Source of the DNA: Golubevia sp. BC0850
Lineage: Eukaryota > Basidiomycota > Exobasidiomycetes > Golubeviales > Golubeviaceae
DNA length: 64,000 nucleotides
Direction of reading: 5' to 3'
Assembly: GCA_012976225.1 (NCBI GenBank)
Contig: JAAVVG010000031.1
Coordinates: 62,001 to 126,000 of the forward strand
Made by a program: the position numbers and the translations under genes. The notes beneath the pieces are model-generated. The model did no database searches. It had not been told where the DNA came from and was given only the letters and a program-made list of their open reading frames with translations. This document shows, one piece after another, positions 16,462 through 60,680 of the stretch (positions are counted from its first letter, which is position 1; the number at the start of each line of letters is the position of its first letter).

Positions 16462-16562
16462 TGTCGAAGATGAGTGAATGTTCTGAAGAAGATAGAAGGT
16501 AGAAGATTGATTGACTGGAGGCGGTTGCTTTAAGATTAGAGGGTTTCGGATTAAAAGCTCTG

Positions 16563-16794
16563 GTTGTCAAGGGGTAAGAAAGGCAAGAAAGAGAGATGGA
16601 GCTCACCAACGCCACCCAATTTCAAGTCGTAAGGAGGCCAATCTTCAAAGTTTCACAATCGATCTCGCATTTTNNNNNNNNNNGTTGTCAAGGGGTAAGA
16701 AAGGCAAGAAAGAGAGATGGAGCTCACCAACGCCACCCAATTTCAAGTCGTAAGGAGGCCAATCTTCAAAGTTTCACAATCGATCTCGCATTTT
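16563..16794. other. Assembly gap with unmerged contig overlap
   Basis: Ten N at 16674-16683 separate two copies of the same 111-bp sequence (16563-16673 and 16684-16794). This is the pattern left when a scaffolder joins two contigs whose ends overlap but are not merged. The real sequence most likely has one copy. ORFs running across the N are artefacts. Confidence 0.9.
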
Positions 16795-16949
16795 TGAAAA
16801 CAAAATCCAAAGAAAAGACACTTTAAATGGGTTGACACGTACGGAATCTCAATTTATGAACATCCCTTTCACCCCCTACTCCCGCCACCTCTGCACCTGC
16901 CTTTCGAACTTCTTCTACCTTGGAGAATATTTCGCAACTACAGGGTCCC

Positions 16950-18639
16950 TTAAAGACGAGACATAAATTGGATCGTTTGGCCTCCATCGATTGGAATCGC
17001 AGCTCCAGTGATGTGAGAAGCAGCTCTTGAAGACAAGAAGACAGCTAAACCTCCAATGTCTTCAGGTTGACCGATACGACCTGGTTTTCATCAAAGAGAT
17101 TAAAAGTGAAGAAGCGTTAGATGGAGCCCAAAATCACAGTTACATGTGATGAACAGCACATTAGAAGAGAAGAGAGAACGATCTTCTGTCGAACTTTCTC
17201 TCGACAGAAAGCAAGAGAGCGATACTGAAACGAAACCTCACTCACCAGTAGGTTGACCTTCATGAATGAGCTCCGAATTGTTCTTCAAGCCATGAGCAGT
17301 CATTCCAGAAGGGAAAGTTCCTGGACATATGGCATTGACCAGAATGAACTTGTCTGCTAATTGATTAGCTAGAGTTCTGGCCAAATGGATTGAAGCAGCT
17401 TTGGATGGTTGATCTGAATGTTGAGTTGAGAGCGACGTTTCGCGATTAGAGTTTAGAGAAGCGGCGGGGGAGGGGAAAGGAGTGAGAGGATTTGAGAGTC
17501 AGATCCTGGGCTTGGGTCCTCCCAGAATGTAGAAGACAATGGATGATCTGACACCTTCCAACATCATTTAGAGCTCGGGGAGACGTTCTCCGAGAAGAGA
17601 GAATCTAAACATGAGAAGCTACTTACAACTGAAAGTCCCAGTACCGGGAAGGCCCAATGCCCCTCCAGCGATCGGCATGAACCCAGCTATGGAAGAGACC
17701 ATGATCACCGATGCTTGATCTGGGAAATGAAGAAAGAAGGATAGATGGAGGGATCAATCGATCAGCGAAGAAGTAGGCGGGTGCAGATCCGGAGAGAGCG
17801 GAAATGAGAAGGAAGCAGTTGGACTTACTGGTGTTTGACTTTCCAACTTCTAATAGAGGAAGAAGGCTAAAATAAGTAGAGGCGCAGGGCGGAAGAGGAT
17901 CAGAACGGAGTTAACGGAGAGAATAGGTACAGCTCTGCAAAGAGAGAAGGGAGAGCACACCCACTTCCAGTCCAATTTGCGGTTAAATCATACCTGAAAC
18001 ATCTATCCAATGCCTCTGATATCTTACTCACGCTACAGTCAAATAGAATTGACTCTTGACATTCAAGTGGAAAGTCTTGTCCCAACCTTTCTCTTCTGGG
18101 AAGTTATCCAAAGGAGCACCCCAAGCAACACCCGAGTTGTTGATCAAGATGTCTAGATTAGTCTCTTTCTCCTTGATCTTAGCAGCCAGATCATCACAAC
18201 CAGCTTTGGTTGAAAGCTCAGCTGTGAGTGGAATACAAGCTGGACCGGAGATACCTGAGTTAGGTGGGGAGAGAGCTGAGAGCTCATTTGCTGTTTTTTG
18301 AAGGGCCGGAAGTTTACGAGAAGCAATGTAAACCTTAGCTCCGTTACGAACCAGAGCGGCAGCCATCACTGCGAGAGAGAAAAGGTGGAGAGGACAGGGT
18401 TAGAGAGATAGAGGTCGAAATGGGTTGAGAAAGAGATGCTCACTCTTTCCTAATCCGACTCCTCCTCCAGTGACAAGCGCGATCTATTAGAAATAATTCA
18501 AAGAGAGAGGAGAAGTTGTTGAGCGGAAGAGGAAAATGGTTGAGAGACAGAGTGGGGTAATATTTACCTTTCCCTTGACTCCGAATAGAGATTCCAATCC
18601 CATCTCCGGCAGAGACGCTTCTGTAGTGTTCTTGCTCAT
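16950..18639 (-). CDS. Short-chain dehydrogenase/reductase, copy 2
   Basis: This is a minus-strand paralogue of the SDR at 75-1856 with the same exon layout (first exon 18639-18568, last exon ending with a stop at 16950-16952). It starts [17 protein letters not shown] and carries the same NADP-site (TGGGVGLGK), NNSG, YQPSK and SHITG motifs, so it should be an active NAD(P)-dependent oxidoreductase. Many differences from copy 1 are conservative (about 86% identity over the 113-residue exon, including V/A, I/L and S/T changes). The two genes are the outer parts of an inverted duplication. Their divergence contrasts with the identical sequence just downstream of both. A 5' neighbour on the same strand is the Zn2Cys6 regulator. 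Confidence 0.85.
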
Positions 18640-19267
18640 GATTGCTAAGGTAGTAAGTCGACGTGGTTAGGCTGTTGAAAGTGAAGAAAAGGTGCGCTTC
18701 CTTATAAAGGATGTCGGAGAAGATTGCTCCGTTGTCGGAAGGTCGAAGCAGTCGACGCTTCTTGCCCTCCCGCTTTGGGAAAGATGAACTGTCTATAGCC
18801 GATGACTATGATGAGATTCCAGAAAATCCGTAAAGCGTTGAAGATTCACTGGCAGAACTGTCAAGAACAATTGGAGTCCTTTCGAAAGTGAAGCCGAAAT
18901 AGTTGTTGAGATTGCAATTTCGTTCGATGAGAGTTGAATCTTGTCCAGCTGGAGAAGAGAGCTATTCATTTGAGAACGAGACTTCATGAACTGTGATTTG
19001 ATAGAGGACAGTTGAGGGAGAGAGAAAGATGGAGCGATTCGACTGTGCTTTCCGGCAATGCTTTCTCCCACACGCCCTCACCTTTTTCGTCTCCCATTTG
19101 TTGGAGAGTTTCTCAACTAACTCGTACAAAAGAGAATCGACCTAATCATTGAGTGCCTGAAAACAGAATTGAAATATCTATGAAAATGATAGCAAAGCAG
19201 AAACATATAACCAGATCGAAGAAAACGAGGATCCAAATCCCAAGATGAAACAGAAACTTGAAGTCGA
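18640..19267. other. Promoter of SDR copy 2 and 3' flank of regulator gene
   Basis: This gap lies between the SDR start (18639) and the stop codon of the regulator (19268), both on the minus strand. It should hold the SDR promoter and the regulator's 3' UTR. A short minus-strand ORF (18793-19071) has no motif. Confidence 0.5.
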
Positions 19268-22060: not shown

Positions 22061-23311
22061 ATGCAAGCTCCAATCTCAGCCGTCCCTGCTCCAGACTCTC
22101 TTAATCACGAGTACAAGCTATCTCAAGAACAAATCGACTCTTACCACAAGCAAGGTTTCCTGATCCTCAAAGATCTCTTCGATGAGACAACCACAAACGC
22201 AATCACTTCTTGGTCAAACGACGTTCAGAGTTGGCCTGAAGTCAAAGGTTGTAATTGGATGCCTTACAGAGAACGTAAGGCTGATGGAAAATCAGGACTT
22301 TGCAGGATAGAGAACTTCGCCGACTCCGTGAGTAAAACTTGACTGCGAGCTTCGTTCCAGTCCCGTCTTCTCGACACTTATCTATTTCTTCCTTCTTCTT
22401 TCGCCATTAACAGCACGATGGATTCTCAAAAATGTTCCGCGGAAAACGTCTACTCAGTGTTCTCAACCAGATTGGAAATCAGTCTATGATTCTCTACAAG
22501 GAAAAGATCAATTTCAAGTCGTCCATGGCTGGAGGATTCGATGCGCATTGTGATGCGCCCGCTTATGCGTCGGGTGGTGCAGAAAAACATCTCACTATCA
22601 ACATCGCTGTCGATCAAGCTACCATGGAGAATGGTTGTCTAGAGGTGGTTCCTGGAAGTCATGTCATGAATCTCCCACTCGGAGAAGACAACGCGAGTGT
22701 CTCTTCTCTTTGATTCCGAGGATCTTATTCTCTATTGTCTTACTGATTCCTTTCTTTCCCCCCTCCTCTCATCTCTCGCAGTGTATCTCAAAGGAGTGGG
22801 AATCCTCTCACGAATGGGTTCCAGTTCCTTTACAACCAGGTGATACTCTCATTTTCGGCTCTTTCCTCGCTCATCGTAGTGGTCCAAAGTGAGTCTCGTA
22901 ATTTCTTCACCTACTCTTTCTGTCCAGTTTGTATTCTGACTTACTTCACCCCTCGATCCTTCTCTCAGTCTCTCGCCCAAAAACCGAGCAGCTATCTACG
23001 TCACCTTCAACGCCGAGAGTGATGGAGATCTTCACAGCTCATACTATGCAGACAGAAGACTAAAGTGGCCTCCAACGTTCGAGAGAATTGAAGGACAAGA
23101 TTACTCCGAGGTGAGTTTGCAGTTGACCTTCTTCTGAAGTTCTGCTACGTTCTCAAAAACTGACGTTCATTTCTTTGGTATCGTTCTTCCCCTTAAGGGT
23201 GCTCTTCAATACGGATTCGGTTCTCCAATGGCAGGTGCTACGGTTCATAGTCGTCTCCAAAAGGAACTCTTCCAAAACCTCAACGCCGCCACTCAGACCA
23301 CCAAGGTCTAG
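22061..23311 (+). CDS. PhyH-family Fe(II)/2-oxoglutarate dioxygenase
   Basis: I read five exons: 22061-22327, 22414-22692, 22782-22888, 22969-23110 and 23198-23311, giving 302 residues. The protein has the phytanoyl-CoA dioxygenase fold: GFLILKDLFDE near the N-terminus, the iron-binding HxD in FDAHCDAPAY, ENGCLEVVPGSHVMNLPLG, then LQPGDTLIFGSFLAHRSGP supplying the distal His, and an Arg for 2-oxoglutarate in PKNRAAIYVTF. These enzymes hydroxylate small or lipid substrates; the substrate here is unknown. Intron 2 appears to use a GC donor (AAC|GCGAGT), the only phase that joins NLPLGEDN to CISKEWESS. The last 54 coding bases and the 3' flank recur inverted at about 58.7-60.7 kb. Confidence 0.85.
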
Positions 23312-25050
23312 TTGGACATTTTCAGCTCGGTTTCTCTTCACTGGTTCCCTAGCTCTTGTTTTTGTCACGTGAATTTGCTTTATCTTTTCGAATGTGATGT
23401 CTCTTGTTTCTTGATTCTTTTCTTTCGACCTCGAAAGGTTCGCAGTGTGAGTCGCTATCCTTGTCGGCACGGTGCTCACCAGATTCAGTCTCCTTTGTTT
23501 CGCAGTTTTTACTGGTTGAGATGTAAGCAGCTGTCTGATTTGCCAAAGTTGATCTTGTCCATTCTTCAACTCCTGCCTCTTCGATGTAAAGCTGCCAAAT
23601 ACACGTGTGCCTTCTGTGACCATTCAGAATAAGGGCAGTTTCATAAGCTTTTCAACATCCTACAAAAGTTCCAGACCTTACAGCGAAGGCCTCCTTCGCA
23701 GAATGTCAATCGAGGGCCAACTGGGTCACGTCGTTGGAATGGTCAGGCTTCACACAGAGAAAGAGGGGATGAGCACAAGCAAGAGCATGCATTCAAAAGA
23801 AAAAGAAGGTAAAAAAGACAAAAACAAAAAAGAAAGAAAAAGAAAAAGAAAAAGAAGGGTAATCAAAAACCAACACGAACACCGTTCTCAGAGGGTCGAC
23901 TCTGAGCGGATCGAAAAGGAAAGAAAGGGGGTGTGGATGTTTGCTGCACTTCGCCATCAGGATGTTAGTCCAGGTGGATGGATCGAGGAGCAGTTTTATA
24001 AGTTGTTGCGAATGTGTAGAGAATTATCGAAAGCGGAGTCGTCTCGTCGAGACGGCGTCAGAAGCAGGGGCAAGAGAGAAGTACGCCGTTAGGTATTTGC
24101 GGAAAAGGAGAACCGACCAAATCTTTCGCACACTTCGATAGACTCGGTGAGGCAAATCGACCCAAGGTCATTTCGTGCCAGTTGAATCTGCATACCCGAA
24201 AGTGCTTGGAAGTGTGAAGAACTTTTGACCTTTCTGAACTCTTCAGCAGAGGAAAGGGAAAGGTGCGTCGACGAAATCAGGTCCAGCCTACCAAAAAGTG
24301 TTTCAGAACTAAAGCGGCTTGACTCGGTGGAGTCGTCTTCAAAGTGCGAACTCTGAGTCTTTTACTCTTGGAAAGAGAGAAGCAAAGATTGCCGAATCAA
24401 ATCCAATCCTCATTCCTATAGACTCAGGTTTGAGACGTAGACGGCAATAGAGCTGTAAACCGGGGTTAGAGCTATGTGCGTGAAGCACTGAGAATGGTGG
24501 GGGCTTCTGAGTGGTTGGTCTTGGTCTCTAAAGGGAGCAGAAAAAGGAAAGAGGACAGAGTGGAATGGGATGAGGATGAAGGGAGGAAAGAAGTTTGTTC
24601 GAAAAGACCCTCTCCCTATAAGGGCTCTTTTCGATGGGCTGGAAACGACGTTGATTTCTTGAGGATGAGGCCAGGCCAGCTGATTCCATTCAAGGACGCG
24701 TCGGTCTAGCCTGGCTCAACAACCACCCAAAAATGTCTCGGCTTGAAAGCGGCTTAGTTCCATGAATTTGCACTCACACTCATCTTTCGAACTTCCACGG
24801 CCCGCCGGAACTAGAGCCAGATCTGCTGTGCAATGAGCCCTTCGTCGCCACTGAGTTTTGCCACACTCACATCTACACTAAAAGAACTTCGTGAACTTGT
24901 CTTCGCTACTCCCCGCTCCACCTCAGCCTTTGATCTCATCAGACAAGGAGTCCAGCCGAGAGTTACCCGAAATACTTCCGACAGCAGGAGGATTGGAATT
25001 GGCAAGCGAGAGAATTATCCTTCCAACCAAGACAAAGTCCCATCATCTTT
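23258..25050. repeat. Dispersed repeat, left copy
   Basis: This sequence begins in the last exon of the PhyH gene and runs downstream. It is similar (I estimate 80-90%, with indels) to the reverse complement of about 58690-60680. Both copies carry an open stretch reading MSIEGQ..VVGMV.LHTEKEGM, but substitutions there do not look constrained. A hairpin (24600-24633) and a recurring TATAGACTC motif are present. The left copy lacks a roughly 272-bp unit found in the right copy. I see no terminal inverted repeats, transposase or reverse transcriptase, so this is more likely a segmental duplication than a complete mobile element. Confidence 0.75.
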
Positions 25051-30959: not shown

Positions 30960-32232
30960 GAGTATCATCCACATCGTTGACGTGTCGATTCCTCTATTAG
31001 CATCTTGTATTTGTACTCATTATTATCATTCTAGCCTCAACCAGATTTTCAAGTACCTGAAAAAAACCTGGAATTTCAATGAAAAGCAATGTCTCAACCT
31101 CGCCTTCAAAGTTTCGAGACGTGCAGCAGAAGAAGCTTAGGCCTTCATGAGCAGTAGCATCCCTTTGGGGCAGTGAGGGCTCATAAAGGTTCTGACGATT
31201 GTGACGTCTAGATGTATGTACAAACGGAAGCATTGCCTATTTACAGTCTTTTCAAATCTTCAATCAGCAATTGCAGGCTAGGATTAGGGTTCTCTTGGAT
31301 GTCTGCCAACCTCGTCTTGTCCGGCTTTTTTTGGCCTTGAGGTTGGAACCTCGTCATCCTCGTCAACCTTGCTTCAATCTGAAGAGGACCATTTCATAGG
31401 ACGATAGCTGAGGAGAATCTTACTCGCTATCAACCTCATCAAGCCGTTTTGAAGCAACTTTGCGACGACTAGGGATGGATTTTAGAGGTTTTCGGGGTCG
31501 AAGGAAGAGATAGAATGGTGACGTTGATTTGTGATTAACAAGAGAGAAAAACAGTGTAAAAGGAACGGTGCGAGAATTTCGAAGTCTGAGTTGGTAAAGT
31601 AAAAGAAGCATCTCGGAATTGGAATTAGTTTGAAGCAATGATTCAGTTGATAAAGGTTCGATGGATAAGCTTTTGAAGATCAGATAAAGTGAAGAAGTCA
31701 AAGTTAAAAGAAGACTGAACGAGGAGGAAGGTTGTAAGGTCTTGGATTTGAGGATCTTGAGCTCCTGATTACACGAGATTGGAAGATTGAAAAGAATATA
31801 GAAAAGTAAGTTCTTGTAGCTTGAAAGAGCACTTTCATAGACTCAGGTTTGACACTTCAGTCGTCTTCCGGAACCTAGTTCCCTACTTTCTTCTCAAAGT
31901 AGAATCGACCCTTGAAACTGTCCTTCGGTATCTTGCAGAATAAAATTGAGTTTCTTGAGATCTCTTGAATCTTGAAGCTGAATTTACCTTCCTAGTCTAT
32001 TGGCTCCTAGACTTGCATATCCTCAAAATTCTTGCGTCTTGATTTTGAATTTCTCACTCTCCTTGAATTGGAAGTCTCCCCTTCTCTAATTTGATTTCTT
32101 TCCCCGCTCCTCATCCTCTAAGTTAGCAGACTCATCAACTAATTTCTCCTACTAGACCTCCATCTCCCCATCGCTTCTCTCCTCGCCCCTCTTTCTCCCT
32201 CTCTCCCTCTCTAACCTCTCTCACCTCCTCTC
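30960..32232. other. Intergenic between convergent genes
   Basis: This gap lies between the ankyrin gene (+) and the FAM210-like gene (-), whose 3' ends face each other. It is AT-rich with no credible ORF. A 16-base string at about 31837 (ATAGACTCAGGTTTGA) also occurs in the dispersed repeat near 24415. CT-rich sequence from 32160 leads into the 12-bp minisatellite. Confidence 0.5.
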
Positions 32233-32316
32233 TAACCTCCTCTCTAACCTCCTCTCTAACCTCCTCTCTAACCTCCTCTCTAACCTCCTCTCTAACCTCC
32301 TCTCTAACCTCCTCTC
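32228..32316. repeat. 12-bp minisatellite spanning a stop codon
   Basis: Seven tandem units of CTCTCTAACCTC (TAAC recurs every 12 bp from 32233 to 32305) end at the 3' edge of the FAM210-like gene. The first unit in gene direction supplies the last codons (RRGG) and the TAG stop at 32304-32306. Looser CT-rich partial units continue outward. Confidence 0.9.
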
Positions 32317-33266
32317 CTCAAAACCGCTCTTTCCTTAGCCTTCTCAGCAGCTTTCTTAACCACGTAATTAGGTTTACTCCAACCGATTTTAACCATAAAC
32401 TTAACGAAGCTAGGTAAAACGGCAGCAGTTAACATGACTCTAAAAGGAAGTAACAAAGTTTTATGAATGGTATAAGCCAAGACGATTTCAGTCCAAAGAG
32501 TAGTTGAAATCCAAGTTGACCCATTCCCATTGCCATTTGGATTAAGATTCGGAGGAGTAGATTTATTACTCAATCCATTATCTGAATTAGAAGTCTTTGA
32601 ATCAGAATGCAGAATAGAACCTTTCCTTAATTCTATAGCTTCTTTAGCTGCTTTTTGATTGTTCTCTTCTAATGATAAAATAGATGAAGAAGAAGGTTGA
32701 TCTGAAAGTTGTTCTTCCAATCCAACTTTTTTCCTAATCCAATTTTCCCATTCCTTAATATGTTCTGCTCCCAAGAAATGAATAGCCATGAAAGTGATTG
32801 AAAAATCTAAGAAAGAAGCGATCAGATAGACTCCTAAAGCCCACCAACCATATCTTCTTGATAAGAATCTCATCCTTTCTCTAAGTGTAGCTTTTGGAGG
32901 TGGTTCATCTGAATCTGGTTCTGGCTCTGGTCCTGAATTTTGATTCTCAGTCGAACTTTCACTTGAAATTGCAGTTGGATTTGAAGAAGTTGCTTTACTC
33001 CGCGAAAGTCCTGTTGAAGCTGTAGATTCAAATCTTGAGAAATTGAATGGAGAAACTCGAGAAAGGTTTCTGGGGATTAGAATTGGAGTGGAGACTGGAC
33101 TGAAAGAGGTTGAAGGAAGTTGTCGGAGATGGATTGAAGAATTTGAAGTGGTGCTACGAATCGATCGAAGTTGAAATTGAAGGTTTGAAGTTGAGGATAA
33201 TCGAGTTGGTTTGAATTGAGATGAGAGAGGTGAGAGTTGGGAACCTCGTAAGGAGAAGGAGCTCAT
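32304..33266 (-). CDS. FAM210/DUF1279 mitochondrial membrane protein
   Basis: This is a single-exon gene of 320 residues. The N-terminal 80 residues are Ser/Arg-rich with few acidic residues, as in a mitochondrial presequence. The DUF1279 domain begins near residue 128: RMRFLSRRYGWWALGVYLIA, SFLDFSITFMAIHFLG, and after a Ser/Asn-rich insert TEIVLAYTIHKTLLLPFRVM followed by SFVKFMVKIGW. FAM210 family members, including yeast Nat2, sit in the mitochondrial inner membrane; the precise role in fungi is not settled. The gene is divergent from ERG11 (581 bp between starts). Its stop codon lies in a 12-bp minisatellite. The first 110 codons are duplicated at 40364-40693. Confidence 0.82.
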   Translation of the reverse strand: MSSFSLRGSQLSPLSSQFKPTRLSSTSNLQFQLRSIRSTTSNSSIHLRQLPSTSFSPVSTPILIPRNLSRVSPFNFSRFESTASTGLSRSKATSSNPTAISSESSTENQNSGPEPEPDSDEPPPKATLRERMRFLSRRYGWWALGVYLIASFLDFSITFMAIHFLGAEHIKEWENWIRKKVGLEEQLSDQPSSSSILSLEENNQKAAKEAIELRKGSILHSDSKTSNSDNGLSNKSTPPNLNPNGNGNGSTWISTTLWTEIVLAYTIHKTLLLPFRVMLTAAVLPSFVKFMVKIGWSKPNYVVKKAAEKAKERAVLRRGG

Positions 33267-33847
33267 CTTGAGCGACTGCGAGGGAAAAGCGTATGGTCGG
33301 GATGAAAACGTGAAGATGGTTCAGAACATAGAAGTAGAAAAGAAGGAATGGAAGAGGAGAGGAAAGGCAAGGGAAGGGAAGCAGCGCAGCTCTATGTGTT
33401 GCCTTCACCTTTGCCCGCCAGAGCCAGATGCTACCTCTTGGGTCTCACTGCTGGGTTCTACTGTTGGGAGAATCATGATAGAGGAGCTGAACAGTCATCT
33501 TTCGAAGCCATCGATCCAGTCTAACCCCACTCTGCTTCCCCCTCTACTGCTGTGCTGTGCTGTCTGGGTAGTATGGTCCCTCCCCCTTCCCCTTTCCCCT
33601 TCGGATGCATCTGGTGCTAGTTGAATCTGTGTTTTGAACCTGATTTTGTCAATCAAATGATAACTCACGTTTATGACATTCATTCCCTCGTGCTGTTGCT
33701 GTTGCTGTTGCTGTTAGAAGCAAACTTCGCGTGGCCAGATTTTTACCAACCGATTGATTCAAAACCACTTGATTCCAAACCACTTCATCTCTCTCTCTTT
33801 CTCTTTCTCTTTCTCTTCCTTTTCAAGGACTCTTTGTTACTTTCAAG
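33267..33847. promoter_or_regulatory. Divergent promoter, FAM210-like / ERG11
   Basis: This 581-bp region separates two divergent starts. It has a CTGTTG microsatellite at about 33692-33715 and a CT-rich tract (CTTTCTCTTTCTC) just upstream of the ERG11 ATG. I could not identify a convincing sterol-response element. The whole region is duplicated at 40694-41274. Confidence 0.6.
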
Positions 33848-36565
<2,718 letters not shown>

Positions 36566-37132
36566 GGCATTTAGATCTATCTGGGAGACTGTATGAAAGT
36601 GGGCGGTAAGATGAAGATGGTCAACTCAAGGTCTGGAAGTCGGAAAGAAAAGAGTTACAATGACCCTGTAGAGGGATACGTCTTTCCTAGGATCTAAAAC
36701 AAGCTTATGAATCTACAAAATCAATGAACCTTCAAAAATTAGCAAAACTTACAACGGCCAAACTTTAATACCCAGCCTCCATTTATCCCTTCTTCTTCCT
36801 CCTCCCTCGAAAACTCCTGCTATTGCATCTCAAGTCTCCCTTCTTCCTCGCCCCTTTTCTCTTCTGCTTTCTTTCCCCCTTTTAGTCTTATCTTTCTGTG
36901 CCTCCAACTTGTTTCCGGTTTCTCCTTTCTTCGTCTCAACCTAAATAGATCAAAATCATTAAAACGGTCGTCCACTCTTTCGAGATCTTACTTTTCGAAT
37001 CTCAGCTGGATATCGGGATTCTGAATTCCATCAGTGATCTGCAGCGTGAATTTTAGATCGGCTTGAACTGACCACAAGGTGTGAAAATAGCACAGCCTCT
37101 CGAACACGCAGCGTGTCGTCAACAGGTATTTA
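36566..37132. other. Intergenic, 3' of ERG11
   Basis: AT- and CT-rich sequence between the ERG11 stop and the next plus-strand gene. It should contain the ERG11 3' UTR and the next promoter. No ORF or repeat is supported. Confidence 0.5.
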
Positions 37133-38400
37133 ATGAGTCTTCCGAACTCATCATTTCTCACTTCTCCTTCTCTGATCTCTTCCGGTAAAGATTACTACCC
37201 GTTTCGAACATCTTTAACAACTCTCACTTCGATGGGCAACTCTTCTAGCACACCCTACCAGCCAGCTTTCCCAGTGACTCTTCCTATAGGTGTACTCCCA
37301 GAGTTCACCCAACACCAAAGTCCAATACATCTGGAACTTGAAATTGAGCCTTGCAGAACATTCAAGAAGGGAAACGATCTGCAGACTGTCGTTCGGGTGA
37401 GTACGCAAACACAAGCGTAAAGAATCCATTCAAAGGTCTCTCATCCACAAGGCGTTCAGCCCCGGTAAGGCTGGTGGCTCACAAAAGTCATCGTCTTAGG
37501 AGCAGTAGGTAGACCTCGAGCTTCAAATCATTGGAACTTCTTCTGTACAACTTCTGAAACTTTTCTTCCATTTTGACCATTTGACTTTCTGACCTCGCAC
37601 AGGACTCTCACACTAAGCAACTGATCTTTACAATAGGTCCGATCATCAGAATAAACAAGAATTATGTCCAAAGTGAGCACATGATACGCTCATAGAAAGT
37701 GCGATGAAAAATCGATGTCCAAGCCTCAGCAAAATTGACGAGATGTTTATTTTCCCCTCTGGATGCTTTTTCCTCACTCATCTCTGGGTCTCCAGCTCTC
37801 TACTCGTCCTCCGAAGTTCCTCTTTTCACCTTGACCAGTACTGGATCTTCAAGCCGCAAGACAACATACATTTGTCACTTGGCACTGACTGGAGAAGAGA
37901 TTTATCGAGCTGTTGAGAGTACCGGTTCAAGCTCTACCGTCTGCATTTTCACCTTCAAGAATCTCTTGGGAGCACATCAACAAGACATGAGAATAGTCCT
38001 TCGAAAGAATGGAGTAATATCAGCCTGGAATCTCACAGTCGGAAAAGTCGCTTTCTACAAAGGTTGGAATAGAAAAGAGACTCATCAACTGAACGTCGAC
38101 CCCGGGATCGATGTCGCTCTGATGGTCATCTCAACTATGTGCTTGGTATGTTGAAAAGCACCATTATAGAGGATCGAGGAACTTTCTGTTGCCTCGAGTC
38201 AACAATTTTGCAGACTTGCTGTCAATTTGACTGATCTTTTTTTTCGTACTTTGATTTCCTCTGCCTCCCAACTCTCGAGTCGGTCCAGATCTCGCTCAGC
38301 AAACGCAGCAAACGTAGCAATGGCTGGAGGTGTAGCTGCGAGTATGAGTGCAAGTGCAGCAGCCGGTGCCGGCTCTTGCAATGGCGGAGGAGGGTTTTAA
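37133..38400 (+). CDS. LURP-one/tubby-C-like domain protein, 3' end unresolved
   Basis: Exons 37133-37396, 37603-37672 and 37796-38145 join in phase to give 228 residues. The order IHLELEIEPCRTFKKGNDLQ, TKQLIFTIGPIIRINKNYVQ, YICHLALTGEEIYRAVES, DMRIVLRKNGVISAWNLTVG and DPGIDVALMVISTMCL fits the beta-barrel of LURP-one-related (tubby C-terminal-like) proteins. In fungi these are uncharacterised. A second ATG at 37231 (MGNSSS) gives a myristoylation-type start and may be the real one. After 38145 a GTATGT donor is clear, but no acceptor gives an obviously better last exon. An Ala/Gly-rich open stretch near 38285-38400 is the best candidate by composition but not by phase. Confidence 0.55.
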
Positions 38401-38547
38401 ACACAGCAAACACAGGGTCGAGTGCCTACTCGATGATCACCTCAGTCACTGCATTGCCGAAAGGCTTTCGTCGAGAGAAGTGACATTTCAATTAACAAAA
38501 AACTGAAATCAGACTTCGAGTAGACGAGACACCTTGAGACTCTCCGT

Positions 38548-39582
38548 CTACACCGAGGTGTTCGGAAGGTGATTCAAAATAGTGATGAATGAACTTTTGA
38601 AACCATTTCCTTTTAAAAGTCTTGACATGTTCGAGAATCGGTTCCTTTTTTCTTCTTTCCCTCCTTCATTCTCCTTCGCCTCTCCTAACCATTTTCCCTC
38701 CTCAAAATCGCCAACGTCCCAGACTAGAAAAGGTCTTGAAGCGAGTTTCTTGACTCCGGAGAGACCTTTGAAGGTTCCTGAATACTCCACTAGAAAGTTA
38801 GAGGACTTGAGATTGAGACCGAAAGTAACATAGGCCTCAAGTAGATGAGGGCAGTAAGCCATCCAGATCACACTTTGAGCATTCAACATTCTGGCGGGAT
38901 TGTTAGATGCTCCCAAATGTAGTTTCTTCAGAGAGTGAGCCAGGAAGTGGAACGGAATTCTTCTGAGGTCTCTCTGTTCTGTGAGGGGGAAGTGAAGGAC
39001 ACTACCCTCGAGGATCAGAATCTGGAGGTTGCGACATTCTCCAAGAATGAATTTGATGATGATCTGTTGTACTTCATTTTTATTTAATTTCCTTCCGGAA
39101 GCAGTCCTCAATTGCTCCCAGAGCATATTTGTTCGCAGAGCAACCTGCTGGAGCAGCGGTGATGTTGAAGCTCTTGACCAACAGCTCTCTTTTCGAATCT
39201 CTTTGCAGAATATGGTAGAGAGATTGAAGATTAGCCTCCGAGAGAGAAGCGGTTTGAAGACGATGAGGAAGCCAGCGAATGTTACCCAGCCTAGAGGTCC
39301 CAGCAAGAGCAGAGAAGGCGAGATCTCTTGATCTGATGATAAGAAACACAAGAAAAGGACAGCGCGTGAAACTCTGGATTAGAAAAGTCGAAACGATCAT
39401 GCTTTGGAGGAAAGCACTTACCTTCTTCCCTCTTTTCTTTCTTCTCTTCATTCCTTCCCAACCTCGTTTCTCTCAGCCCAACTTCTAATCACTTGGACGA
39501 TAGAAGGAATCACATCTTTGATTAAAGCTTCGAAGGTCGCTGATTCCTCTTCCGGGCTCTTGATGGCGAGTGGCTCGCTCAT
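38548..39582 (-). pseudogene. F-box/RNI-like gene, interrupted
   Basis: On the minus strand a start at 39582 (MSEPLAIKSPEEESATF) opens a frame that meets TGA at 39448-39450. Reading on in the same frame reaches a strong donor (AAG|GTAAGT), and splicing to an acceptor near 39327 gives RSRDLAFSALAGTSRLGNI in phase. The frame then closes at about 39080, and a +1 frame continues with NEVQQIIIKFILGECRNLQI, HSLKKLHLGASNN and GLNLKSSNFLVEYSGTFKGL to the stop at 38548. The Leu-rich spacing fits the RNI-like proteins that are common and variable in basidiomycetes. Two independent breaks suggest a recent pseudogene, or sequence errors at A/T runs. Confidence 0.5.
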
Positions 39583-40126
39583 GCTCGAACTTGGAAATTG
39601 GAAGGCTGAGCGAGGGGAGAGAGAAAACGAGAAGTGGATCAAAACGGCGCTGACTTCAATCGTGTAGGCATCAGTCTATCGGTATATTGTCTATCTACCG
39701 ACCTTCTCTTCCCGGAAGCTGAAAGGAGCAAAGAGAGATGCGATCGTGAGGAGGAGGTCTTTTGGCTTTCGCGCTAACTGGAAAGTGTCACCCAATTTCA
39801 ATCTCGTTTATTCAGGACTTCTTCTCTGTGTAGAAGGCTCGATTCTTCAAACTCGTATCGCCAAAACCGGATTGATTGATTGACTGATTGTTCGAGGAGC
39901 AGAGAAAACGTGTGTGAAGACAAACAGAACTTGGAGAAAGATCGAAAGAATTAGCGTGGTTGGAATCGTGAAGTCGTCAACGAGGGGGAATAGTCAAAGA
40001 AAAGAACAAATAGAGAAATGAGAACGGAAGAGAGAACAGGGAGTCTGAGAAGAGATCGTAGAGATGTAGCTTTGAGGAGGAGAGATGGTTTGACGAGAAT
40101 GGGATCAAAAGACCGAAATACAAAGC
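39583..40126. other. Intergenic
   Basis: This gap lies between the start of the F-box-like gene and the original 3' end of the PPP1R37-like gene. No ORF of note; purine-rich towards 40100. Confidence 0.45.
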
Positions 40127-40693
40127 TCATCGAATTTGTCCAGCTACTTCTGCTTCCAGCTCCTTTGCACCATCGTGTTCAGCACCCTTGCTTGGGCTTG
40201 ACGGCGGCAGTTCAGTTTGGAGAAGATCTTTTCGAAGTTCCTCGCCTGAAACTGAACTGTTCGGAGAATGAGAATGAGGAGGTGAAGTTGAAGAGCCGAT
40301 ACTAGTACTCTCAGCAGTCGAGGAAGAGATCGAGGTCTCGGCTTGCTCTCCTTCCACCTGCTTATTTTGATTCTCAGTCGAACTTTCACTTGAAATTGCA
40401 GTTGGATTTGAAGAAGTTGCTTTACTCCGCGAAAGTCCTGTTGAAGCTGTAGATTCAAATCTTGAGAAATTGAATGGAGAAACTCGAGAAAGGTTTCTGG
40501 GGATTAGAATTGGAGTGGAGACTGGACTGAAAGAGGTTGAAGGAAGTTGTCGGAGATGGATTGAAGAATTTGAAGTGGTGCTACGAATCGATCGAAGTTG
40601 AAATTGAAGGTTTGAAGTTGAGGATAATCGAGTTGGTTTGAATTGAGATGAGAGAGGTGAGAGTTGGGAACCTCGTAAGGAGAAGGAGCTCAT
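40127..40693 (-). CDS. Chimeric ORF: FAM210 presequence fused to PPP1R37 tail
   Basis: This 188-residue ORF was created by the segmental insertion. Residues 1-110 equal the N-terminus of the FAM210-like protein, including the mitochondrial presequence, up to ESSTENQN. Residues 111-188 (KQVEGEQAETS ... EVAGQIR) are the displaced C-terminus of the PPP1R37-like protein. The fusion is in frame by chance and keeps the FAM210 promoter, so it could be transcribed. It lacks the DUF1279 domain. Whether a protein is made, and whether it enters mitochondria, is unknown. Confidence 0.6.
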   Translation of the reverse strand: MSSFSLRGSQLSPLSSQFKPTRLSSTSNLQFQLRSIRSTTSNSSIHLRQLPSTSFSPVSTPILIPRNLSRVSPFNFSRFESTASTGLSRSKATSSNPTAISSESSTENQNKQVEGEQAETSISSSTAESTSIGSSTSPPHSHSPNSSVSGEELRKDLLQTELPPSSPSKGAEHDGAKELEAEVAGQIR

Positions 40694-43600
40694 CTTGAGC
40701 GACTGCGAGGGAAAAGCGTATGGTCGGGATGAAAACGTGAAGATGGTTCAGAACATAGAAGTAGAAAAGAAGGAATGGAAGAGGAGAGGAAAGGCAAGGG
40801 AAGGGAAGCAGCGCAGCTCTATGTGTTGCCTTCACCTTTGCCCGCCAGAGCCAGATGCTACCTCTTGGGTCTCACTGCTGGGTTCTACTGTTGGGAGAAT
40901 CATGATAGAGGAGCTGAACAGTCATCTTTCGAAGCCATCGATCCAGTCTAACCCCACTCTGCTTCCCCCTCTACTGCTGTGCTGTGCTGTCTGGGTAGTA
41001 TGGTCCCTCCCCCTTCCCCTTTCCCCTTCGGATGCATCTGGTGCTAGTTGAATCTGTGTTTTGAACCTGATTTTGTCAATCAAATGATAACTCACGTTTA
41101 TGACATTCATTCCCTCGTGCTGTTGCTGTTGCTGTTGCTGTTAGAAGCAAACTTCGCGTGGCCAGATTTTTACCAACCGATTGATTCAAAACCACTTGAT
41201 TCCAAACCACTTCATCTCTCTCTCTTTCTCTTTCTCTTTCTCTTCCTTTTCAAGGACTCTTTGTTACTTTCAAGATGATTTTCTCTTCTTCTATCCTAGA
41301 GTCAACTCCATTAGCCAACCTATCACTCCCACTTCAAATTCTAGTCATCTCAATCTTAACCATCGTACTATCAGTAGCTTTCAACGTCTTTAAACAGAAA
41401 TGCCTTCCAAGAGATCCTTCTTTACCTCCCTTGGTATTTCACTATTTCCCTATCATTGGTAGTGCTGTCACCTATGGAATGGATCCTTACACCTTCTTTG
41501 AGAAGAATAGAGAATTGGTGAGTTTGGGCTCAAACCAAAGAGACAAATGGGCAAAGTTGTGATGGGCTATAGGCAACAAAGTAAAGGTTGATGTTTGGGT
41601 TTCATGACATTTTTCAGAATCGTTCTCAAGGAAAAAGAGAGAGAGGCAGGAGATGGCAAGATTTGGCAAGATCACAGAACCTCCATCGGAAGACTTCCTG
41701 TTCTCTAGGGCAAGAAGATTTCCAGCTCTCGAGACATCTCTTTGGAGAGAGAGAAAGTTGAGCTGAGCTTTTAAGATTCAATAAGAGACTAGCAGGTTGT
41801 TCTTTGAAGAGGTGCCATCAATTGAAGCTCTCAATCATAGCTAGATTGGGAATGGGGAAAGGAACATTCTAAATTCGGAGGGATCTCAAACTTTCATCTC
41901 CTCGCCTTGTTCTTCCTCTTTGGGTAGCTTCAGGCTCTGTTTATTCAGAAGATGAAAGATCATCTTTTGAACCGTGGCAGTGCAAAGCAGAGATTTGACA
42001 TGTTTGGGTTGAGAAGGTGGTTCTTCTCTTATCAGCTCGCCTTTTGCTCCAAGTCGATGATATCCTCCTCGATCTAGTTTCGAGATTCTTGTTTTCAGTA
42101 AAGAGATCCCTAAGATTACTCTCATGATTCAAATCTACTCGAACAACTTCCCATTCATCTCGAAAAGCTCTCTTCTAACACCCTTTTTCGAATGCTCCAT
42201 TCCCTCTTCTTCCGCTCTTTCTTAGCACGGAGATGTTTTCACCTTCATTCTCCTCTCACGTTCAATCACAGTGGCCTTAGGATCCAAAGGATCAAGCCTA
42301 ATTCTCAACGGAAAGCTCTCTCAAGTTTCAGCAGAAGAAGCTTACACTCACCTAACCACTCCGGTCTTCGGTAAAGAAGTAGTTCACGACGTTCCAAACT
42401 CAATTTTCATGGAACAGAAAAAATTCGTAAAGGTCGGTTTATCAACTGAAAACATGAAAGTTTACGTCGATCAAATCACAGACGAGTATAACGGTTTCTT
42501 AGCAACTGATTCCAAATTTCAACAACTCAAGAAGACTGGAGAGGGGAAAGTTGACATTTTCAAGAGTATGTGTGAATTAACTATTTTGACTGCTAGTAGA
42601 ACTTTACAAGGTAGAGAAGTTAGAGAAGGTTTAGATAAAAGTTTCGCTGATTTATATCATGATTTGGATTCTGGTTTCACTCCTATCAATTTCGTCATTC
42701 CTAATTTACCTTTACCAAACAATTTTAAACGAGATAGAGCTCAGAAAAAAATGAGTGATTTTTATAGAGGGATTTGTAAGAAGAGGAGAGAGGAGGGTGT
42801 TTTGGATGTGAGTAATCTTTTGAGGGACTCAAAGGTGTTTTGTAAGAAAAGAAACACCCGCTCTTTCAGAATGAAAAGAAACAGGTCTTCTAGACGAGGT
42901 AATCAAAACAGGAAACGATCATCTGAAATAGTCAACCCTTCTAACCTGAAGTCGAAATGGAGACTGACCTTTTTTCCTTTCAATTCCCCTTTCTCCTTCT
43001 TCGGTAGACGGAACACGACATGATCTCAGCTTTGATGACTCAATCTTACAAGAATGGACGTCACATTTCAGATTTAGAAATCGCTCATATGATGATTGCT
43101 TTATTAATGGCAGGACAACATACTTCTTCAGCAACTGGTTCTTGGGCAATGTTACGTTTAGCCTCTCAACCCAAAATCATTCAAGAGCTCTATGATGAAC
43201 AAATCTCAGTGTTTGGAACTTCTGAAGGTTCATCAGATGAGAAATTCAGACCACTAAATTATGAAGAACAAAAAGCCAAAACTCCAATTCTAGATTCAGT
43301 GATTCGAGAAACTTTGAGATTACATCCTCCTATTCATTCTATTATGAGGAAAGTTCTTTCTGATATTCCAGTTCCTCAAACTCTTGCTACTCCTATGGGA
43401 AGTAAGAAGACTGATTCTGCTTATGTCATTCCTAAAGGTCATTTCGTCATGGCTGCTCCTGGAGTTTCTCAAATCGATCCTAAGATTTGGAAAGATTCTA
43501 TGGATTTCAATCCAAAGAGATGGTTGGAATCTAATAAGGAAATTCAAGATGACGATGATGGTGAAACCGTGGATTATGGTTGGGGAAATGTTAGCAGTGG

Positions 43601-46600
43601 TGCCAACTCTCCTTATTTACCTTTCGGGGCTGGAAGGTGAGTAGTGACTTCAAGACTTTGAAAAGGAGGAGAGACGATTTTCACTTTCCTTCTCGGCTGA
43701 TTCGTTTCCAATCACCTCCGGCATTTCTTCTTCTCTTGCGGCTTGTTCAGGAGAATCTAGAATTCCGAGCCCAACCTGACCAGAGGATTGATTTGAAAGC
43801 TTGGATGTGATTCCAGAATCAGACTCATCATCTTCTTCATCTTCTTCCGAACCAATAGAGAAGGTCGGTGAAGAGAGAGAAGACTCGATCACGGGAGTAG
43901 AGAGCAGACCCGGAGATGGGATTTCGAGTTCTTGAAGTTGAGTTGAAAGCATGTCCGAAGGTTGATCAGCTGCTGCTTTGAGAGAAGAGGCGTCGATTGA
44001 GGGCACCGAAAGGTACAGATTCGAGAGTCGGCTTGAGATGGCTTCAAGAGAATCGTTGAGCGTGAGAGAACGATCTGTAAAGCAGTGAGTCGATAATCAG
44101 GGTCAGTCAAAGCACAGAAGCTTTGCGCAAGTAACCGTGTCAGCCTTCAAAACTCACCAAGAACATCACCCTCCTGCATCCCGCCAACGGCATTGACTAA
44201 TCTCTCTCTCAAGCCTTTCGCCTGTTCGACCAGATCATCAACGAAATCAGGTTTCTCTTCCATCACTCCAGCTTCCTTACCCTTTTTGTTACCGTTATCA
44301 CTGATCAACTCTTTCGTCTTCTCCCTCCTTCTCTCTTCTACACCTCTAACTAGATCGGTCAAGACTTCGTTACATTCTTCAGCAGCCTTGACTAATTCTT
44401 TTGCATCTTGATTTCTACCCTCCCTTCTGGCTTTGGAAGCTGATTCTTCAGCCGCTCTAGCAGCTTGGACCGCTCTTGCTCTTTCATCCTTTTCTTTTGC
44501 CGCTCTAGCTACCACAGACTTGTAGATAGGAGCAGCGATTGGCTGTTTGGAACCTCTTTGCAAAGCTTTGCGTTGAGCTTGCTCTGTGTTTCGAACACAA
44601 GATTGAAGGATGTCTTGAGAAAGTCTGGCGAAATCTGGATCGTTTGGCTGTTGAGGAGATGGGAAATGAGCGGGTCAGCTCCAGGATCACAACGTCCATT
44701 GATGATGATTTGTCTCTTCTCTCAACTCACAGGGATATTCAAATCTAAGCATCTCAAGCTCTGATTCATCTTCACGCTAACAGCTAGGGCCATTACTCCA
44801 GCTATATCGATACCAAAGTTCTCCGTTAGATCTAAATGGATGAGACTCTTAGCTTCCGGTAAGAATTCAGCTAAAGCAATTGCACCTTCAGAGCTCAGAT
44901 CGGTATCGTTCAAGAATAGCCTTTTGAGATTCGAGTTCAAAGTGAAAGCAGTTCTTAACCTAGTAATACCTTCCAATCCAGGCCCAGCACAAGGATTATG
45001 ACTAATGTCCAAAGTTTCAAGAGTTTCGTTAATCTTTAAAGCTTCAGCGATATGGATTAAACCACTCATCTCGATGTTGTTATCCGATAAGTTGAGCACT
45101 CTCAAAGTTCGATTCTTCTTCAAAACCTGAGATAGATAAACCACTCCATTTCTGATATCATTGGATTTCAAATCTAAAGTCAAAAGATTGCCAATTCTAG
45201 GAAGGTCTTTCAACAACCTCTTAGTCCTTTTTGCTTGATATAATGAAATAGCTTCTTCCTCTGACATTCGAGATGGAGCTTCAGATTTGATTTGCTCTCT
45301 CTCAGAGGCTGTTAACTGTCGATCTAATTCTTGAAGTGGGGAGATTAAGGCTGGAGAAATGGAGCCAGATTCTGCTGAAGCTTCTAGATAGGAAGATCCA
45401 TCTCTCTCCGAAGGTGACACTGGTAACCTTCTGGAAGTGATACCTCCTGCAGGAGAACTTGTGATGACTGGAAGATCTGGAAGAACAGGACTTGAGTAAT
45501 CGTCACTGCTGAATCGGCCCTTGGTAGAAGGGGCGCTATTAGCAGTCGATCTTTGATTCGACTTGCCATCTGGGAAGGTAGAGGATCTTGTTGGGTTGTT
45601 CGTAGAAGAAGAAGGACTTGCTGAATTCGGAAGTCTGTTCAATTGAGGAGATCCGTTTGCGTTCGCAGCTCCATTTCCATTGAGTCCAAATCTGTTCTCA
45701 TTTTCTCCATTGATAGAAGATCTCGAGTCAGGATGATCTTTCAACATTCCAGCCAAAGCAACCGCTCCCATTTGACCTATCCTATTCCTTCGCAAACTCA
45801 GATGCCTTAGATCAGAAGTTCTCACTCCTTGGGCTAATGTTTCTAGAGAGTTCGTTTTGAGTCCACAATTTTCTAACCTTAGGGAGATAATTGTTGAATT
45901 TGGAGGAGCGTCTGAAGATGAAACTGATCTGAGAAGTGGTGCTGAAGGCATTAAAGCTTCATTGTCGAAATCATCGAAATGCTCTTCTGACGTGGTGGCC
46001 GGACTAGAATTTGTTGATTGGTTCACGTTTGAAGTTGAGGTTGAGGTTGAAATGTCTTCTTCATCTATTTGACGAGCTTTCCCATTCGAATTTGAGCTAG
46101 GTTTCGTTGGCTTGCTTTCTGAAGAATCTTTGGGATGAGTTATCTGTAGAGAAGTTTCGTCTTTTGCAATGGCCTGTACTAACTGATCTAAAGCAGCTTT
46201 ATTAATGTTATTTTCACTTAAATCTAAATACCTCAGAGCTCTAGCTCTTCTCATGAAAATGGCGATGTACTTCCAACCATTGAATTTGATTTTCCTATTT
46301 GACGCAAGTGACAAAGTCGGGAGTGATCCAGAGATAAGAAGGGCATGAAGTAAAGGTTTCAAAGTCTGGTTGTATGCCATCGAAAGAGGGAGACGAAGGG
46401 GTGAGATTCGAATTCGATCAAAAATAGACATTGGAGATACTCACCTCATCGATCAAGTTACAGTTCTCGAGCACTAACTTTCCTAGACCGAAGTTCACGG
46501 ACAAGAAGTCTGCGATTGGTTCAATAGCATGACGATCTAAAGGGACGAAAGAAAGATCTAGAGTCCTGAGAGCCGGTGGACTTGATTGCGATGCGTCCTT

Positions 46601-47756
46601 CATAGAGTGTTATTTCATTGATGAGAAGATGGAAATCCATTAGTGTGGGGTCTTCTTATCCAGAAGGATGAGCAAAAAGATCTGGCATACAATCACCCTC
46701 TCGGCAGGAGGGCGGTACCCTAACTCTTGCCCCTGTGCCTTCTCATTTCCGACAGAGCAGCTTCAGACCTGATCTTGAACTCTTTCCTTCTTCGCTACTC
46801 ACTGAGAAAACACTCCTCATCTTCTTCAAAGGCATCTCCTCTCTAATCCTACAGAGATTCCTATAAAGACTTTCCAATTCATTCACGTTCCATTTCTTAT
46901 TTTCCCATTCCTTCAATTTCAGCCTATGTTCTCTTTCGATTCTAATTCTAGTGAAATCTTCTTCACTTGGAGCGATACCATTCGAGATGGGATAAGTCAC
47001 AGACATAGAAGTGATAGTGAATTGGACTCTCTTAAGAGGAGCTGCTGACAGGGTTGAATTCAAATTCGTCGAAGCGTTAGATTCTTCAGATAAAGTTGAA
47101 TTCTTGGAATCCTGTCTCTTGGGAGCAGGGAAGTTAGGTAGATCCTTTGAAATGTTAGCATCATTATTCCTATCACCTTTCCCTTCTTGTTGGGCTTGAG
47201 CTTGACTTTCTTCAAGAGGAGCTACAACTCCTGCAGCGATTCCACCTATCCTTCTGAAAAGCCCACCAGCTGCTTGAATGACATTGTTAGTTGCAACACC
47301 AGCTGCATTACTTCCAGGAGCCGTTGGATTTGGAACTGGAATCTGAACATTGACACCCTGTTGAGCTAATCTACTATTCAGAGATTGTAGAATGTCTCTA
47401 CGAAAAGAAAAAGTCTTTTGAGGAATTGGAGAAGGTTTCAGAATCGATTTTGGAGAGGAAGGAACTCGTCTCTTCCGGGCAGGTCTAGGTTTTGAAATAG
47501 GGTCTGGGGCTGCAGTTGCGATTGTAGCTGCAGTTGGAGTGATTGGAGTAGTTGTTGAAGTTGATGGAGAGTCGGAAGTTGATGGGAGAGGCTTATGTTG
47601 ATTAGAATTGATATTGGAAGTTTCAATAGGAGTTGAATCGTTGTTCATGGGATTAGAAGAAGTAGATGCTGATGCTGATTGAGATGATTGGACCTCTTGC
47701 TGTGATGATTGGGTCTCCATCTCCTTTGAAGCCGGCTCCTGAGCTGAAGAGCTCAT
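40127..47756 (-). CDS. PPP1R37-like protein phosphatase 1 regulator, split by an insertion
   Basis: Exons on the minus strand are 47756-46803, 46597-46445, 46365-44731, 44647-44158 and 44074-43678, then across the inserted segment 40363-40127. Removing the insert (keeping one shared A) gives 1288 residues. The N-terminal region has the PP1-docking RVxF motif in LKRVQFTITSMSV. LRRs follow: RTLDLSFVPLDRHAIEPIAD, ARALRYLDLSENNINKAAL, LRVLNLSDNNIEMSGLIHIA, LKRLFLNDTDLSSEGAIALA and LIHLDLTENFGIDIAGVMAL, as in vertebrate PPP1R37. A Glu/Arg-rich helix and an acidic Ser-rich tail end the protein. As assembled, translation enters the insert after SAEKESEN and stops at 43650, replacing the last 79 residues. 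It shares a 186-bp promoter with RAE1. Confidence 0.75.
40364..43677. repeat. Segmental duplication, inserted copy (3314 bp)
   Basis: This is a copy of 32937-36250 in the same orientation, inserted in the last coding exon of the PPP1R37-like gene. ATTTT occurs at both junctions (40364-40368 and 43677-43681), as expected for a 5-bp target duplication or for microhomology. The bases before 40364 and after 43677 belong to the interrupted gene: their codon arithmetic closes exactly when the insert is removed with one A retained. Confidence 0.93.
41275..43640 (+). pseudogene. Truncated ERG11 copy without haem exon
   Basis: This copy has the promoter, exons 41275-41517, 42226-42807 and 43008-43636 and the start of intron 3, all without visible difference from ERG11. 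The duplication ends 41 bp into intron 3, so the last exon with the axial Cys ([10 protein letters not shown]) is missing. Unspliced reading ends at GAGR followed by TGA at 43638-43640. A protein from it would keep the membrane anchor and substrate channel but could not bind haem as a P450. Transcripts would run antisense into the PPP1R37-like exons. It also carries the His at the Tyr132-equivalent position (42385-42387). Confidence 0.85.
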
Positions 47757-58689: not shown

Positions 58690-60680
58690 ACAGTTGATCA
58701 AGTTTTCATCGGAAGCTCCCTTTTCTATGAGTGGCAAGATTGGAAGGAGAATTCTCTCGCATAACGATTTCAATCCTCCTGCGGCCGGAAGTATTCCGAT
58801 AACTCTCACCTACATGATCTATCTTGAGGAGACCAAAGGCTTAGGTGAGAGGGGGAGCAGTGAAGAAAGATTCACGAAGTTCTTTTCTGAGTGTAGATGT
58901 GAGGTTGGCAGAACTCAGTGGCGACGAAGAGCCCATTGCACAGCAGAACTGGCTCTAGTTCCTGAGGTTCGTGAAACATTCAAAGGTTCAATGTGAGTGA
59001 AGATTCATCGAACCAAGCCGCTTTCAAGCCGAGACATTTTTGGATGGTTGATGAACCAGGCTGGACCCACGCCTCCTTGGATGGAATCAGCCTCCTGGAA
59101 AAGATCAACGCGTTCCAGTCCATCGAAAAAAGCCGTTATGAGGAGAAGGTCTTTTCGAACAAAGTTCTTCCCTCCCTTCATCCTCATCCCATTCCACTCC
59201 ACTCCTTTCCTTTCTTTCTTCTGCTCTCTTGAGTGAAGACCAAGATCAACAACTCAGAAGCCTTCATCATTCTCAGTGCTTCACGCACATAGCTCTAGCC
59301 CCCGTTTATGGCTCTATTTGTCGTCTGATGGATGCACCTGAGTCTATAGAAAGGTGGAGTGGATCTGTATCTGTCATCTTGCCTCTCACTCTCTGCGGTT
59401 TCAAGGATCGGAAACTGAACCCCATCATCACACACCTCCTTCACTGACCTTGGAATGGATCTGTCAGCCTCAGAAACCCCTCGAGAAAGTCTAGCATCCT
59501 CCGGAACAATCAGAGTCAAGGCAAAGTTCAACCTTCGAAAGGCCACCTCGTTTCTGCACGTAGCTCTAACCTCCGTCTGCGGCTTCATGGCCGTCTACGT
59601 CTCAAACCTTAGTCTATAGAAAAGAGGATTGGATTCGATTGGGCGTTCTTTGCTTCTCTCTCTCCAAGAGTAAATGACTTAGAGATCGCACTTTGAAGAC
59701 GACTCCGCCGAGTCAAGCTGCTTTGCTTCTGAAACACTTTTTGGTAGGCTGGGCCTGATTTCTTCGGCGCACCTTTCCCTTTCCTCTGCTGAAGAGTTCA
59801 GAAAGGTCAAAGGTTCTTCACACTTCCAAGTGCTTTCGGGTATATAGATTCAACCAGCACGAACGACCCTGGGTCGATTTGCCTACCCGAGTCTATAGAA
59901 GTGTGAGAAAGATTTGCTCACTTCTTCTTTTCCGCTAATATCTAAAGGGGATGGCGTCCTATACTTCCAACCCCTTTTTTCCTTCTCGATCCGCTCAGAG
60001 TCGACTCTCTGAGTACGGTGTTCGTGTTGGTTTTTGATTACCCTTCTTTTTCTTTCTTTTCTCTTTTGTCTTTTTCCCCTTTTTTCTTTTGAATACATGC
60101 CCTTGCTTGTGTTCATTCCTTCTTTCTCTGTGTGAAGCTTGACCATTCCAACGACGTTGCCAAATTGGCCCTCGATTGACATTTTGCGCACGAAGCCTTC
60201 GCTGTGAACGTCTCGAACTTTGCGGGATGCTGATAAGCTCATGAAAGTGATCTCCTTCTGAAGAGTTCCAAAATCTTGCCGAGAGATGGAAGTCAAAGCT
60301 GTGATTCGCAGGTCGAAATGAGGATTTGAAAGGCACACATTTGGCAGCTTTACATCGAAGAGGCAGGAGTTGAAGAATGGACAAGATCATCTTTGGCAAA
60401 TCAGACAGCTGCTTACATCTCAACCAGTAGAAACTGCGAAACAAAGGAGACTGAATCTGGTCAACACCGTGCCGACAAGGATAGCGACTCACACTGCGAA
60501 CCTTTTGAGGTCGAAAGAAAAGAATCAAGAAACAAGAGACATCACATTCGAAAAGATAAAGTAAAGCACGTCACAAAAACAAGAGCTAGGGAACCATTGA
60601 AGAGAAACCGAGCTGAAAATGTCCAACTAGACCTTGGTGGTCTGAGTGGCGGCGTTGAGGTTTTGGAAGAGTTCCTTTTG
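58690..60680. repeat. Dispersed repeat, right copy (inverted)
   Basis: This is the reverse-complement relative of 23258-25050, ending at 60680 inside sequence matching the last codons of the PhyH gene. That shared edge means the PhyH locus is the likely source. This copy has an extra unit: TATAGACT motifs at about 59345, 59616 and 59888 divide it into blocks of about 272 bp, and the block at about 59345-59616 has no counterpart on the left. It also has an insertion of about 80 bp near 60240-60320. No coding capacity for mobility is seen. Confidence 0.75.

Follow-up and report, generated by a model that had tools for sequence, protein, structure and literature searches.

How did a piece of two neighbouring genes come to stand, letter for letter, within a third? 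The question arises from a 64,000-nucleotide stretch of fungal DNA (the window), in which positions 32937-36250 and 40364-43677, when compared directly, show 0 differences over 3,314 bases. The match is maximal, as extension by one base on either flank breaks the identity, and the second segment lies in direct orientation relative to the first. An earlier note on this DNA had described a 3.3-kb segment recurring without difference, which the comparison bears out, and had set it 7,427 bp away; that figure is the start-to-start offset, whereas the gap from the end of the first segment to the insertion point is 4,113 bp. Chance is no issue for an identity of this length: screened for direct repeats that contain exact words of 25 bases, the 64 kb yield, apart from this pair, a 12-bp tandem array (32223-32316) and a 111-bp contig overlap and nothing else. 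The 3,314-bp identity bounds the divergence of the two copies at about 0.09% (95%, rule of three), a limit from which no date follows, and the copying of the 3.3-kb piece into a third gene appears very recent. The gene content of the window, which includes a Fungal_trans domain, a GH18 protein and CYP51, is that of a fungus, one that seems basidiomycete-like.

Positions 32937-36250 are taken to be the donor because that segment sits in two whole-looking genes, assigned from their exons and from Pfam and PDB matches. On the minus strand, an open reading frame (ORF) at 32304-33266 encodes a FAM210-like protein of 320 residues (PF06916, Pfam match 3.2e-18). On the plus strand, CYP51/ERG11 at 33848-36565 has four exons (33848-34090, 34799-35407, 35581-36209 and 36397-36565) that encode 549 residues with one terminal stop, and exon 3 finds CYP51B and lanosterol 14-alpha demethylases as its top matches in the PDB. 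Both donor genes look intact. The donor segment comprises the 5' part of the FAM210-like gene, the upstream region shared by the two genes, CYP51 exons 1-3 and 41 bp of intron 3; its ends are arbitrary with respect to gene structure, one falling within a coding region and the other within an intron. The first acidic residue of the FAM210-like protein stands at position 80 and is preceded by nine Arg or Lys residues, an N-terminus that fits a mitochondrial presequence. A 12-bp tandem array at 32206-32316 (CCTCTCTAACCT, 9.5 copies) overlaps the final codons of the native FAM210 ORF, whose end is at 32304, and continues past it; the array lies outside the copied segment. The insert matches one donor within the 64-kb window. 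Searches for relatives of CYP51 exon 3 gave 5 pattern matches in viral_contigs and 22 in genome_contigs, with none confirmed.

The recipient is a leucine-rich-repeat (LRR) gene on the minus strand, for which we give a provisional model at 43650-47756 from ORFs with leucine-rich repeats, an upstream ORF with an RVQF motif (47019-47030) and splice sites, the splice-site check covering the last intron only. One of its ORFs matches LRR_6 in Pfam at 7.5e-15, and the best PDB matches are LRRC34 and ribonuclease-inhibitor-like proteins. It had earlier been described as PPP1R37-like; the searches show leucine-rich repeats that resemble those of LRRC34 and ribonuclease inhibitor, and RVQF in the upstream ORF, and the name PPP1R37 itself is presumptive. 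The interruption of this gene's last exon by the second segment is confirmed: the exon, which begins at 44074, now reads into the insert and stops at 43650, so that the interrupted gene retains its leucine-rich repeats and has lost its tail. The separated C-terminal tail, 78 codons plus stop, is assigned to 40127-40363 on the minus strand. A search for relatives of the LRR ORF returned one pattern match in viral_contigs, which was not confirmed, and no uninterrupted relative.

The assignment of the tail depends on how many bases are removed to restore the empty site, and three lengths, 3,312, 3,313 and 3,314, were compared. The exon arithmetic given previously is correct in that 635 kept bases and one carried base make 636, or 212 codons including the stop, but arithmetic alone leaves the frame undecided. 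Removal of 3,312 bases brings a stop at codon 17 of the tail, and removal of 3,313 lets the tail run through 78 codons to its stop. Openness is insufficient for the choice, because removal of 3,314 also leaves 72 of the tail's codons open; an open frame as long as the 78-codon tail occurs in 1.7% of 5,000 base shuffles. We chose 3,313 because codon usage favours that frame. The tail scores +22.9 bits in the 3,313 frame, and the five remaining frames score between -7.0 and -30.1, in a test whose training ORFs include parts of the same LRR gene and whose stop penalty is a chosen value. In a second test, which leaves stops unscored and uses three training sets, the 3,313 frame is the best of the three minus-strand frames each time. 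Training without the LRR gene gives 26.4 for 3,313, as against -3.1 for 3,314 and 16.3 for 3,312, the last with four stops; training on FAM210 and CYP51 only gives 15.0, -31.9 and -6.0, and training on the LRR gene only 27.6, -14.3 and -8.0, in the same order. As a control, the true frame wins for 52 of 59 held-out 78-codon pieces from five ORFs, some training ORFs being plain open frames rather than verified genes. Removal of 3,313 bases is thus well supported as the right length, though short of proof.

The same choice governs the reading of the junctions. At the left join the sequence is CTGCTT/ATTTTGATTC, where the donor has CCTGA/ATTTTGATTC (slashes mark the breakpoints); at the right join it is GAGACGA/TTTTCAC, where the donor runs on as GAGACGA/GAAAATT. 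ATTTT therefore stands at both ends of the insert, as had been noted. At the left junction (40364-40368, plus strand) it is donor sequence, donor positions 32937-32941 also reading ATTTT, and it is target sequence as well if the empty site has ATTTT once. At the right junction (43677-43681, plus strand) the A is common to the donor end and the target, and TTTT comes from the target. If 3,313 bases are removed, the empty site would carry a single ATTTT, and the left ATTTT would be a 5-bp microhomology between donor and target; codon usage supports this without proving it. With the same support, again short of proof, the left ATTTT would also be the first copy of a 5-bp target repeat, the second having arisen by re-entry at its start. 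If 3,314 bases are removed, both microhomology and repeat would vanish. The same picture would also arise if the break was blunt and lay left of ATTTT, with a match by chance. Because the donor has the left ATTTT as its own sequence, the repeat is inseparable from the microhomology and is not independent evidence of transposition, so that ATTTT is not clean evidence of the target-site duplication to which it had been likened, its place in the empty site depending on the frame. Five or more shared bases occur at 0.72% of about 200,000 random joins in the window; at the right join the common sequence is 0-1 bp. On its two sides the insert meets the target at one point, to within 5 bp, which is what the rejoining of the two ends of one break would give. 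The six bases directly past the right end of the donor (36251-36256), GAAAAT, are the reverse complement of the target ATTTTC at the right join, possibly by chance.

These features are best accounted for by a templated insertion during the repair of a single break in the LRR gene's last exon, a reading to which we assign a probability of about 0.7; the insertion is probably real, local and very recent. A double-strand break or broken replication fork in that exon would have released a left end (...CTGCTTATTTT), which may have annealed at the ATTTT in the FAM210 gene, 7.4 kb off, on the same chromosome or its sister. The annealed end would then have primed copying through the FAM210/CYP51 upstream region as far as CYP51 intron 3, where the new strand would have quit its template. 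Its rejoining with the second end of that break would have taken place where ATTTT begins, the sequence in common being no longer than 1 bp. We infer the break, the order of the steps, the enzymes and the existence of the junctions in the cell from the arrangement of the assembled sequence. In favour of templated insertion are the direct and exact 3,314-bp copy, its arbitrary ends, the five bases shared at the left join and the 4,113-bp gap; against it, the insert is longer than the local events described in vertebrates, the right join shares only 1 bp, microhomology and repeat hinge on the frame, and the scaffold shows an assembly flaw. A contribution of long purine/pyrimidine tracts at the breakpoints was considered and rejected: a 15-base purine run (36233-36247) precedes the right end of the donor, and no tract of at least 18 bases stands within 5 bp of any of the three tested breakpoints.

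The most serious rival, which we nevertheless consider improbable, is an artefact of assembly or amplification, in which one segment entered the assembly two times or neighbouring segments were fused in chimeric molecules. The sequence is a scaffold, with a 10-N join at 16674-16683 flanked by the same 111 bases on both sides, left unmerged (16563-16794), as a k-mer assembler, a type that we surmise, might leave an overlap between contigs. The earlier note makes no mention of this overlap. A second exact long repeat in the window, of 2,410 bp and inverted (2012-4421 and 14264-16673), ends at this join, and amplification chimeras are described as using short complementarity (PMC1855051). On the other hand, an artefact would need two false joins, independent of each other, that depart from and return to one target point within 5 bp, and an assembler would probably not be misled by overlaps as short as 5 bp and 1 bp. 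In the data set of PMC1855051, which yielded about one chimeric junction per 22 kb, direct joins over less than 10 kb make up only 11 of 475 amplification chimeras, and complementarity of at least 2 bp is given for 90.9% of such joins. Were the duplication an artefact after all, duplicated gene calls in this genome would need to be treated with caution.

The 2,410-bp inverted repeat was tried as a second clean case of insertion and rejected, since next to it lies an inverted pair (70-2011 and 16795-18644) that is older and diverged; in 150-base steps over positions 1-1950 the identity of this pair is 56-95%, and its left arm has an adh_short match. Gene conversion, a recent inward extension and an assembly effect are alternatives for the origin of the 2,410-bp repeat. 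Another diverged inverted duplication pairs 23258-25026 with 58740-60680 at 59-96% identity over 13 steps of 150 bases, ten of them above 80%; a Pfam search with one ORF from each arm found no match.

A second rival, still less probable, divides the event in two: a 7,427-bp unit (32937-40363) would first have been duplicated in tandem at ATTTT, and 4,113 bp would then have been deleted from the second unit. The end product would be identical letter by letter to what is seen, and the ATTTT on both sides would be explained without target duplication. However, the tail of the second unit is entirely absent beside the insert, and chance would have had to bring the end of the deletion to within about 5 bp of the unit boundary, out of some 4 kb.

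Transposon capture followed by insertion, whether by a Helitron, by a TIR DNA transposon or Pack-MULE with terminal inverted repeats around its cargo, or by an integrase acting on gene DNA, is very unlikely. Gene fragments with introns are typical transposon cargo, a 5-bp target repeat is present if the frame is right, and the minus strand of the insert starts with TC after A, in the style of a Helitron 5' end. Helitrons have a 5' TC and a 3' CTRR and insert between A and T, but the opposite end of the insert's minus strand has AAAA before T rather than CTRR. The insert is moreover donor sequence from end to end. Among the outer 41 bases, the best 12-mer match for terminal inverted repeats is 8 of 12, which 212 of 300 random segments equalled or exceeded, in line with the previous finding that the segment lacks the ends of a known element. 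Least tenable is retroposition or cDNA integration, which, on the 3,313 frame, would account for a short repeat at the target but is refuted, as the earlier note had argued, by the introns that the copy keeps, CYP51 introns 1 and 2. The copy also keeps the upstream region between the divergent genes, and it has no A tail. What remains is a copy made at the level of DNA from ordinary gene sequence, as originally proposed: the copy is exact, the donor looks intact and the recipient is interrupted.

The templated insertion favoured here leaves two new reading frames beside the shortened LRR gene. On the minus strand, FAM210 residues 1-110 run in frame into the 78-residue tail, giving a fusion ORF of 188 residues (40127-40693) that sits under the copied upstream region and that the earlier note had passed over. 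On the plus strand, a truncated CYP51 copy at 41275-43640 (the native coordinates shifted by 7,427) retains the first three exons with the donor splice site and has no exon 4, which presumably carries the heme-ligand cysteine; unspliced past exon 3, it reaches a stop after 494 residues and ends in FGAGR. The copied upstream region may drive transcription of both the fusion ORF and the truncated CYP51. A bolder reading, which we regard as speculative and rather doubtful, is that a new expressed gene arose from a single accident of repair in the very recent past. The two-way upstream region would then drive a 188-residue fusion that carries a serine-rich tail, taken from a putative PP1 regulator, to mitochondria; the regulator itself would have been shortened by this insertion, and a truncated CYP51 added. 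If the insertion is real, it is a fresh local repair insertion, still identical to its source, in which donor, target and both joins are readable, and a single accident can break a gene, copy an upstream region and create an in-frame fusion together. If it is also segregating in the population, it would offer a natural snapshot, in a fungus, of gene birth via a kilobase-sized local templated insertion.

The event had first been judged unusual. This overstates the case, because local copying and insertion with microhomology and short target duplications is a described class in the vertebrate survey of Pace et al. 2009 (PMC2671141). In the repair-mediated duplication set out there, one end of a break pairs with an ectopic microhomology; it is then extended and joined back to its partner end. 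The joins of this class bear microhomology, filler, a deletion or a target duplication, and no poly-A. Among the 39 loci examined with donors less than 5 kb away, three combine microhomology with target duplication, and two more have these and filler. The present case likewise has a nearby donor that is not a repeat within the window, and its 4,113-bp gap falls inside the <5-kb class, whereas the 7,427-bp start-to-start distance falls outside it. PMC2671141 gives microhomologies of 2-9 nt and target duplications of 4-21 nt; here both would be 5 bp on the best-supported frame, and there is no poly-A. The events of that survey involve vertebrate transposable elements, whereas here a fungal coding exon is the target. 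The main difference lies in size: the largest insert reported in PMC2671141 is 619 bp for the local (<5-kb) class and 3,424 bp for distant donors. At 3,313-3,314 bp the present insert, if real, is about five times the longest local event of that survey, a difference from a size range and not from a mechanistic requirement. On this comparison the type of event is already known, and the present example would be longer than the local vertebrate cases described. In Drosophila, duplications are reported to be mostly shorter than 500 bp, and interspersed ones to be commoner than tandem ones (PMC6380325). Among the matches listed in a literature search with fungal terms, no title concerned a kilobase-sized local templated insertion in a filamentous fungus, from which we do not claim absence.

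Related processes have been described in other organisms. In human templated sequence insertion polymorphisms (PMC5110952), sequence is likewise copied from elsewhere and inserted; those cases have distant donors and are known polymorphisms, whereas ours has a local donor and comes from one fungal assembly. Yeast RPA, Rad27 and Dna2 mutants also copy nuclear DNA into a break with short microhomology (PMC11724301), there at induced breaks in mutants and here in one natural-looking insertion. In baker's yeast, microhomology/microsatellite-induced replication (MMIR/MMBIR), which is Pol32-dependent and Rad52-independent, is described as producing duplications and 13 chimeric ORFs, three of them in-frame fusions (PMC2518615). 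The segmental duplications in that assay are around 115 kb, with larger and smaller ones, compared with 3.3 kb here, and the microhomologies are 5-10 bp, compared with 5 bp on the left, on the best-supported frame, and 0-1 bp on the right. As in that yeast system, a duplication that would have arisen by extra synthesis yields a chimeric ORF while the original genes of the donor look whole.
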